From the NCBI RefSeq assembly GCF_025353885.1, contig NZ_JANXNX010000005.1, forward strand, positions 1 through 64,000: 64,000 nucleotides of DNA, given 5' to 3'. The translations under genes and the position numbers were made by a program. Source of the DNA: Sphingomonas sp. (GTDB lineage Bacteria > Pseudomonadota > Alphaproteobacteria > Sphingomonadales > Sphingomonadaceae). The stretch's first letter is position 1. The number at the start of each line of letters is the position of its first letter. Below are positions 2 to 822 of the stretch, piece by piece. A model generated the notes under the pieces. It was not told the origin of the DNA, ran no database searches, and saw only the letters and a program-made list of their open reading frames with translations.

Positions 2-121
2 GGTTGGACCCGCGTCGTGACGCGCACCGACGACAGCCGCTTGGCGCGCATCGACTTTGCCGTCGTCGACGATGTTGGACGCCCAAGCGGCGCGCTCTCA
101 CTGGCAAGGCCCGTCCAGTGA
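2..121 (+). CDS. gspI: Type II secretion minor pseudopilin GspI, C-terminal end (partial)
   Basis: Frame 2 reads an open C-terminal tail (ending ...SGALSLARPVQ, TGA at 119-121) that runs in from outside the window. Its position directly before gspJ, with a 4-bp GTGA overlap, and its minor-pseudopilin-like end (LARIDFAVVDD) identify it as the end of GspI. GspI forms the pseudopilus tip complex with GspJ, GspK and GspH in the periplasm. Only about 39 residues are visible, so the assignment rests mainly on synteny with the complete gspJKLMN genes that follow. Confidence 0.7.
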   Translation, partial: GWTRVVTRTDDSRLARIDFAVVDDVGRPSGALSLARPVQ

Positions 122-822
122 GTCTCGACCACTCCGCCGAAAACGGCTTCACGCCCCTTCGGCGCTCCGCCGAAAACGGCTTCACGCCCCTTCGGCGCTC
201 CGCCGAAAACGGCTTCACGCCCCTTCGGCGCTCCGCCGAAAACGGCTTCACGCTAGTCGAACTGATGGTCTCGCTCTTCATTTTCGGTCTGCTCGCCGCC
301 GCGGGGGTATCGTTGCTGACTTTCAGCGTCCGCGCGCAAGCGTCGGCGACAGCGCGGCTGGATGAAATTGCGCAGGACCGTCGCCTGTCCGCATTGCTGA
401 CCAGCGACCTGGCCCAGGCGCTCCCCCGCATCGCTCGAACCGCCGATGGCGACGCGGTGCGCGCCTTCGAAGGCTCCGATGGCCGGGAGGACGGCCTGTT
501 GATGGGCTATGTGCGGGCAGGCTGGAGCAATCCCGACGGCGGCGCGCGGGCGGGTATCCAGCGCGTCGATATCGTGGTGGACAAGGGCCGACTGGAGCGC
601 CGCGCCTATGCCATGGTCGACGGAACCATCCCGGCCAACATCATGGTGCTGGCGACGGATGTGGAATCGGTCGGGGTGCGATACCGCGAAAAGATCGACT
701 GGCGGACGAAATGGGACACGACGCGTCTCGACCTGCTGCCCCGTGCCGTCGAATTGACGATAAAGCGCCGAAACCGTGCGGCGCTGCTGACGGCTTTTCT
801 TGTCGGCACACCCTATCCATGA
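118..822 (+). CDS. gspJ: Type II secretion minor pseudopilin GspJ with a repeated leader
   Basis: GspJ is a pseudopilus-tip component processed by the GspO prepilin peptidase. The canonical cleavage/methylation site is G43|FTLVELMV followed by a hydrophobic helix (SLFIFGLLAAAGVSLLTF). The GTG at 118 overlaps the gspI stop (GTGA) and is the best start, giving 234 aa. The leader is abnormal: the unit SAENGFTPLRR occurs three times before the true SAENGFTLVEL site, encoded by 33-bp tandem repeats, so the leader is about 43 residues instead of the usual 6-15. The last codons overlap gspK (ATGA). The body from the helix onward looks like a normal GspJ. Confidence 0.9.
   Translation: MSLDHSAENGFTPLRRSAENGFTPLRRSAENGFTPLRRSAENGFTLVELMVSLFIFGLLAAAGVSLLTFSVRAQASATARLDEIAQDRRLSALLTSDLAQALPRIARTADGDAVRAFEGSDGREDGLLMGYVRAGWSNPDGGARAGIQRVDIVVDKGRLERRAYAMVDGTIPANIMVLATDVESVGVRYREKIDWRTKWDTTRLDLLPRAVELTIKRRNRAALLTAFLVGTPYP
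132..252 (+). repeat. 33-bp tandem repeat, 3 full copies plus 22 bp
   Basis: Three identical 33-bp units (132-164, 165-197, 198-230) beginning CTCCGCCGAAAACGG are followed by a 22-bp partial copy (231-252) that merges into the native gspJ sequence. The period is a multiple of three, so the copies stay in frame and each encodes a G-F-T prepilin-like motif. Confidence 0.95.

Follow-up and report, generated by a model that had tools for sequence, protein, structure and literature searches.

Introduction

Coding minisatellites, also described as variable-number tandem repeats (VNTRs), occur in bacteria as tandem in-frame units whose number varies. A different kind of repeat DNA within protein genes is represented by the Rickettsia palindromic elements, which measure 105-146 bp and enter many genes as well as intergenic regions (PMC2229807). 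Insertion of a prepilin places its leader on the cytosolic side of the membrane, and the prepilin peptidase takes the leader off (PMC7248040). Here we analyse a tandem array of 33-bp units in the leader of a pseudopilin gene, gspJ, located at the start of a 64,000-nucleotide stretch of Sphingomonas sp. DNA (GCF_025353885.1, contig NZ_JANXNX010000005.1, positions 1 to 64,000; hereafter the window), and trace the unit through the genes of the type II secretion system (T2SS) in related bacteria.

Results

The gspJ leader carries four copies of one motif

The window opens with the 3' end of gspI (1-121, on the plus strand like all window features given below), the 5' part of which lies on a second contig, C37, and whose stop codon overlaps the GTG start of gspJ (118-822), encoding a minor pseudopilin of the T2SS. 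The same operon continues downstream with gspK (819-1799; NF037980, 8.2e-78) and gspL (1796-2872; TIGR01709, 2.9e-52), and gspG, gspH and gspI precede gspJ on the minus strand of C37. The assignment to gspJ, made in an earlier note on this DNA from the sequence alone, stands, since the product matches TIGR01711 (7.8e-27; 94.3 bits against a curated cut-off of 64.85) and PF11612 (3.9e-26). The source genome has two A24 peptidase genes.

Read from the GTG at 118, the GspJ protein begins with (M)SLDHSAENGFTPLRRSAENGFTPLRRSAENGFTPLRRSAENGFTLVELMV, and its leader of 43 codons (118-246), in agreement with the length of about 43 residues given earlier, ends at the glycine codon 244-246, with removal predicted after G43. 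The leader peptide comprises (M)SLDH and four SAENGF cores joined by three TPLRR linkers, and TLVELMV follows the last core. TRF reports the underlying array at 132-253 as 3.7 copies of a 33-bp period with 100% identity and a score of 244, far above the other entries among the 35 TRF rows in the window. The cores occupy 133-150, 166-183, 199-216 and 232-249; the first 12-bp spacer, encoding TPLR, lies at 151-162 and recurs identically at 184-195 and 217-228, and each of the three identical unit junctions is spanned by a palindrome, TTCGGCG-CTC-CGCCGAA (158-174, 191-207 and 224-240). The 33-bp in-frame repeat of the earlier note is thus real, with period and translation intact, whereas the partial copy that it counted after three full ones is a fourth core together with the start of the mature domain, making four complete SAENGFT motifs.

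As had been noted, the last GFT alone adjoins the hydrophobic helix. Both Pfam N_methyl (PF07963; residues 39-62) and NCBIfam IV_pilin_GFxxxE (TIGR02532; residues 42-63) match GspJ in a single stretch at the last copy, indicating that the last GF alone is recognised as a prepilin motif; likewise, the pattern G^F(T/S)xxE with a hydrophobic helix after it is found at the last copy and at none of the three upstream copies. Cleavage thus probably falls between 246 and 247. The proposal that the copies offer alternative cleavage sites is not borne out, since the internal copies go unrecognised by the profiles and drift from the core (see below), and the upstream GF sites are probably inert. Between 118 and the helix there is no other in-frame ATG, GTG or TTG codon, and no promoter or terminator was found within the gspJ repeat. 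Had relatives possessed a start codon beyond the repeats, the earlier note would have counted this against the leader; as worded this comparison does not apply, for relatives without an array merely have shorter leaders.

The array coincides with a contig break

Position 1 of the window is the first base of a 99-kb contig, and positions 1-141 are identical to the reverse complement of the final 141 bases of C37, so that C37 ends within the first unit. The exact overlap of 141 bp would fit the largest k-mer size used in de Bruijn assembly. The asparagine codon begins at base 142, at which 26 units in relatives carry A and 97 carry C (N or H) among 126 distinct units; a co-occurring strain with the other letter at this position may explain the break, as may a branch at the other side of the overlap. 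Because the break lies inside the array, the gspJ copy number in the source genome is provisional.

Could the array itself be a product of short-read metagenome assembly? The meeting of two contigs in the first unit with an exact overlap would fit this reading, as would the situation in another genome, G157, whose arrays also sit at contig ends and which has a 1740-bp identical stretch on two contigs. Against it, the window array is 122 bp long, below the 141-bp overlap, and similar arrays are present in relatives assembled into one or two contigs (G090, G112, G076, G203 and G291). We therefore give an assembly origin almost no credence, and the array family certainly exists, whatever the exact number of units in the window. 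In G157 (contigs C53 and C84; loci L147 and L148), the 1740-bp stretch covers gspG, gspH and gspI with 100% identity on both contigs, and the gspJ-side array of one contig continues into the gspG array of the other, reflecting either a tandem duplication through crossing-over between arrays or an assembly tangle.

The unit recurs in sister genes and across Sphingomonadaceae

Two units are present in the leader of gspG in the same operon, which reads MTRNHRSLENGFTPLRRSAEN before GFTLVE, and one core, LRSAEH before GFT, in that of gspH; gspI of this operon has no unit. The gspG and gspJ arrays of the source genome have a spacer in common, and both have a CTA codon shortly after the start of the mature part, a codon present at that position in 3 of 81 arrays. 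All six core matches in the source genome lie in gspJ, gspG and gspH, and the palindrome TTCGGCG-NNN-CGCCGAA occurs three times in the gspJ array, once in gspG and nowhere else in the genome. With core and palindrome confined to gsp genes, a genome-wide REP or mobile palindrome was rejected.

A search for related loci yielded 49 with similar leaders, many of them from sphingomonads. Before counting, we removed a copy of another locus (L047, of L046), the second G157 contig (L148), exact duplicates and the non-sphingomonad loci L056, L057, L060 and L062; the weak matches L064-L080, mostly from unrelated taxa, were kept outside the analysis with the exception of L074. Across the family, core matches were seen in the leaders of gspG, gspH, gspI and gspJ, on the coding strand and in frame. 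Among 129 pilin N-termini from 34 loci, in-frame GF pairs upstream of the last GF lay 11 (41 cases), 22 (20), 33 (9) or 44 (2) residues from it, and single pairs were found at 12, 56, 76 and 101 residues. In 50 loci, 176 of 177 core matches lay ahead of a detected pilin start and in its frame, and the last, in the L061 gspJ, is in frame by translation; one core match in L149 is spaced by 30 bp, not 33.

A degenerate protein pattern that ignores the core, GF-11 aa-GFTL[VI]E, was found in 30 of 397 Sphingomonadaceae genomes, and its reversed form, used as a control, in none. The 30 genomes all fall within the 203 that are GspG-positive, 173 of which have no doubled motif, and 28 of the 30 carry the same DNA core, with G145 having a diverged form and G237 none. 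Class-wide, 2 of 385 genomes have the pattern, the source genome of the window and G530, the latter lacking the RSAE core. The core itself matched in 61 of the 397 genomes, and those with multiple or exact matches show tight 33-bp clusters; isolated one-mismatch matches look like chance, because the reversed control also gives scattered singles. With up to one mismatch allowed, 13 whole genomes gave 57 core matches, of which 56 fall inside the pilin cluster and on its coding strand; the remaining one is a one-mismatch match in G016. A control of 80 further T2SS loci, taken from the GspG list after removal of the array carriers already fetched and of a few other genomes, and thus no measure of prevalence, comprised 249 pilin N-termini, of which the script flagged three with an upstream unit; two were real (L194 and L210, which alone have a terminal core of the RSAE type) and the third (L180) is a G-L pair rather than GF.

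These distributions bear on replication slippage private to the gspJ of this genome, an event that would have no wider meaning and with which the identity of the three window junctions would agree. The occurrence of the unit with an identical spacer in gspG of the operon, together with the spread of its core through the leaders of four genes family-wide, indicates a shared repeat family and not a private expansion of gspJ; private slippage is highly improbable on these grounds, and we rejected it.

Other DNA is also found at these sites. Translated REP/BIME sequences of the palindromic GTCATTCCCGCGAAAGCGGGAATCC type lie in sphingomonad pseudopilin leaders at L033:2521-2625 and L048:3800-3995, the insert in the L033 gspG leader having 98 matches in its own genome. 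Such true REP-type inserts in leaders of the same genes indicate that these leaders tolerate foreign DNA. The gspJ leader of G237 (C16:61636-61686; L246) has its GF doubled at 11 residues without the core and resembles a piece of a REP.

Unit number and composition change between relatives

The earlier expectation that copy number varies was confirmed at the level of species, since the genome collections hold one genome per species and all copy-number contrasts are between species: two Sphingobium gspJ genes (L035 and L036) have 4 and 1 extra units, respectively, with the frame intact and mature GspJ proteins 97% identical. In a GspG tree with 96 rows, of which 40 have arrays, presence changed 16 times compared with 24-37 in 200 shuffles, in a sample enriched for arrays, indicating that inheritance explains part of the pattern and that gains or losses are frequent. 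In the closest relative, G001, SAEN precedes the gspJ GFT and there is no repeat, which could be a loss or an independent form.

Paralogous arrays within a genome share spacers more than expected (0.678 versus 0.553 after shuffling, sd 0.021; 0 of 1000 shuffles). The gspH and gspJ arrays of L156 have two identical spacers in identical order behind a similar insert. The gspG and gspH leaders of L042 (pilin starts near 2544 and 3088) have in common a longer insert (LFPGEGRGP...) before a GFTPLRRSAEN unit, which suggests that a tract was copied between paralogues. In G157, seven consecutive copies precede gspG at the end of one contig, and another contig has four. In the gspJ array of L061 (3950-4150), four RAAQQGFT-type units are followed by a single terminal unit of a different type, RSAEN, which makes this locus a good candidate for replacement of a unit at the 3' end.

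Constancy of the core in DNA sequence contrasts with a variable spacer

The unit of 33 bp consists of a free spacer of 12 bp and a 21-bp core, CGTTCCGCCGAA[A/C]ACGGCTTC, in which the window has CGC in place of CGT. Across 81 arrays with 239 units, the codons of internal copies depart from the local background (given in brackets): CGT 67/74 (0.12), TCC 67/70 (0.15), GCC 71/72 (0.29) and GAA 57/67 (0.43), and the spacer codon AGG 32/58 (0.02). When gspJ genes were compared in 253 genome pairs, which are mutually dependent, agreement was 0.88 at the fourfold sites of the terminal core, 0.48 at the fourfold sites of the mature part and 0.50 at spacer bases. The core is thus constant at the DNA level and the spacer is not; the spacer and the fourfold sites of the gene itself are near saturation.

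The arrays are polarised, with the cleanest cores at the 3' end. Going upstream, mean core mismatches are 0.59, 0.98 and 1.00 (n=81, 47 and 23), a rise that is significant on permutation within arrays (p=0.003) and on synonymous sites only (p=0.025). The longest arrays leave this decay, with 0.20 at j=3 (n=5) and 0 thereafter (n=1 each). In 46 of 81 arrays, the GF of the copy furthest upstream is preceded by sequence other than the core, as is expected where a unit joined behind a native cleavage site.

The core contains a stem, GCCG-AAMA-CGGC, one pair of which covaries among 126 distinct units (G-C 108, C-G 11, mismatched 5, G-T 2), a suggestive sign of structure. The 9 loci with the C-G form include several related ones, and the form may have arisen once. 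Folding energies of units showed no excess over synonymous versions (mean z +0.16), although the region 90-290 of the window folds somewhat better than shuffles (z -2.48); since single units are no more stable than their synonymous versions, conserved mRNA structure is not claimed. The junction palindrome is particular to spacers like those of the window gspJ.

This pattern raises the possibility that the core is a nucleic-acid element for a recombination or insertion process, or a DNA or RNA hairpin, through which arrays grow at their 3' end by something other than ordinary slippage. The agreement at core synonymous sites relative to the gene's own fourfold sites, the fixation of the rare codons CGT, TCC and AGG in the unit, the 3' polarity even at synonymous sites and the covarying stem pair all speak for it; the unremarkable folding of the units and the possible single origin of the covarying form speak against it, and we regard it as unlikely, if still worth entertaining.

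The peptides themselves might instead be functional, with the motifs or the long charged leader tuning processing, targeting or the order of pseudopilin assembly and with unit number under selection. The glycine of internal copies is invariant (77/77) and the phenylalanine nearly so (76/77), arrays are always in frame, and all four pseudopilin genes can carry them. Set against this, close relatives differ widely in how many units a given gene has, often none, most GspG-positive genomes do without the doubled motif, synonymous sites are conserved as strongly as the peptide, and the prepilin profiles ignore the internal copies. A peptide function of this sort appears improbable to us.

Discussion

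We favour the reading, with a probability of roughly 0.6, that the array arose when a 33-bp coding minisatellite, confined to pseudopilin leaders in the Sphingomonadaceae T2SS, expanded locally. In this reading the minisatellite spreads by duplication and recombination and is tolerated because it lies in a leader that is removed. At its 3' end the unit encodes a prepilin cleavage site, so that a unit inserted behind a native GF would keep the frame and place a fresh working site beside the pilin helix, turning the old site into discarded leader. Units would then multiply through tandem duplication and pass among gspG, gspH, gspI and gspJ through recombination at shared sequence, and older ones would shift upstream and decay. 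The prepilin peptidase is predicted to cut at the last GF and to discard everything upstream, which is why the host would tolerate the units, presumably at no cost. Duplication within arrays combined with recombination between paralogues would account for homogeneous arrays, for shared spacers and for the spread through four genes.

Copying should homogenise spacer and core alike, and since the spacers are near saturation and the synonymous sites of the core are conserved, a copying model alone fails to explain the core; the j=3 units of the five longest arrays, which break the decay, also count against it. Synonymous conservation of the core might mean either that copying is limited to units whose core is intact or that cassettes circulate and are often re-acquired. 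In a more specific version, a process recognising the 21-bp core and the GGCTTC of the prepilin site would extend the leader at its 3' end by new units, each bringing a working cleavage site of its own. We consider such polarised insertion distinctly unlikely; were it true, the cutting by the host peptidase would remove the element's own cost, and the variable 12-bp spacers between constant cores would record the order of addition.

Under the favoured reading of a tolerated minisatellite, a cleaved leader peptide can offer repeat DNA a safe place, and one unit family can span four paralogous genes of a secretion machine with the frame kept. In sphingomonad pseudopilin genes, start sites and leaders are prone to misannotation, and an assembly can break at these places. 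The arrays also make it testable how much pre-cleavage sequence the prepilin peptidase and the membrane-targeting route tolerate, and the conserved synonymous sites of the core next to saturated spacers pose a puzzle amenable to direct experiments.

How does the array compare with known systems? The window gene resembles an ordinary gspJ with a class III (prepilin) leader in gene, domain, operon position and last cleavage motif, and differs in that its leader is not short, being 43 residues made of repeats. A search of open-licence literature, in which peptide and DNA strings were included, returned no description of this repeat. With REP/BIME sequences it has short palindromic DNA in common; these have many dispersed, mostly intergenic copies, whereas the core is not dispersed in the genome, being found in gsp genes in the source genome and almost exclusively in the pilin cluster elsewhere, and the junction palindrome belongs to certain spacers. 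The closest published idea that we have seen is that of the Rickettsia palindromic elements, which, like other in-frame bacterial MITEs, are small repeat DNA in frame within protein genes; they are longer and insert into many unrelated genes, whereas the pseudopilin unit is 33 bp long, tandem and found in pseudopilin leaders only (PMC2229807). Tandem in-frame units of variable number are what the array has in common with bacterial coding minisatellites and VNTRs, from which it differs in that one unit family occupies four paralogues and many species, with a synonymously conserved core and variable spacers. We rate the array as a coding minisatellite of unusual target specificity and core conservation.
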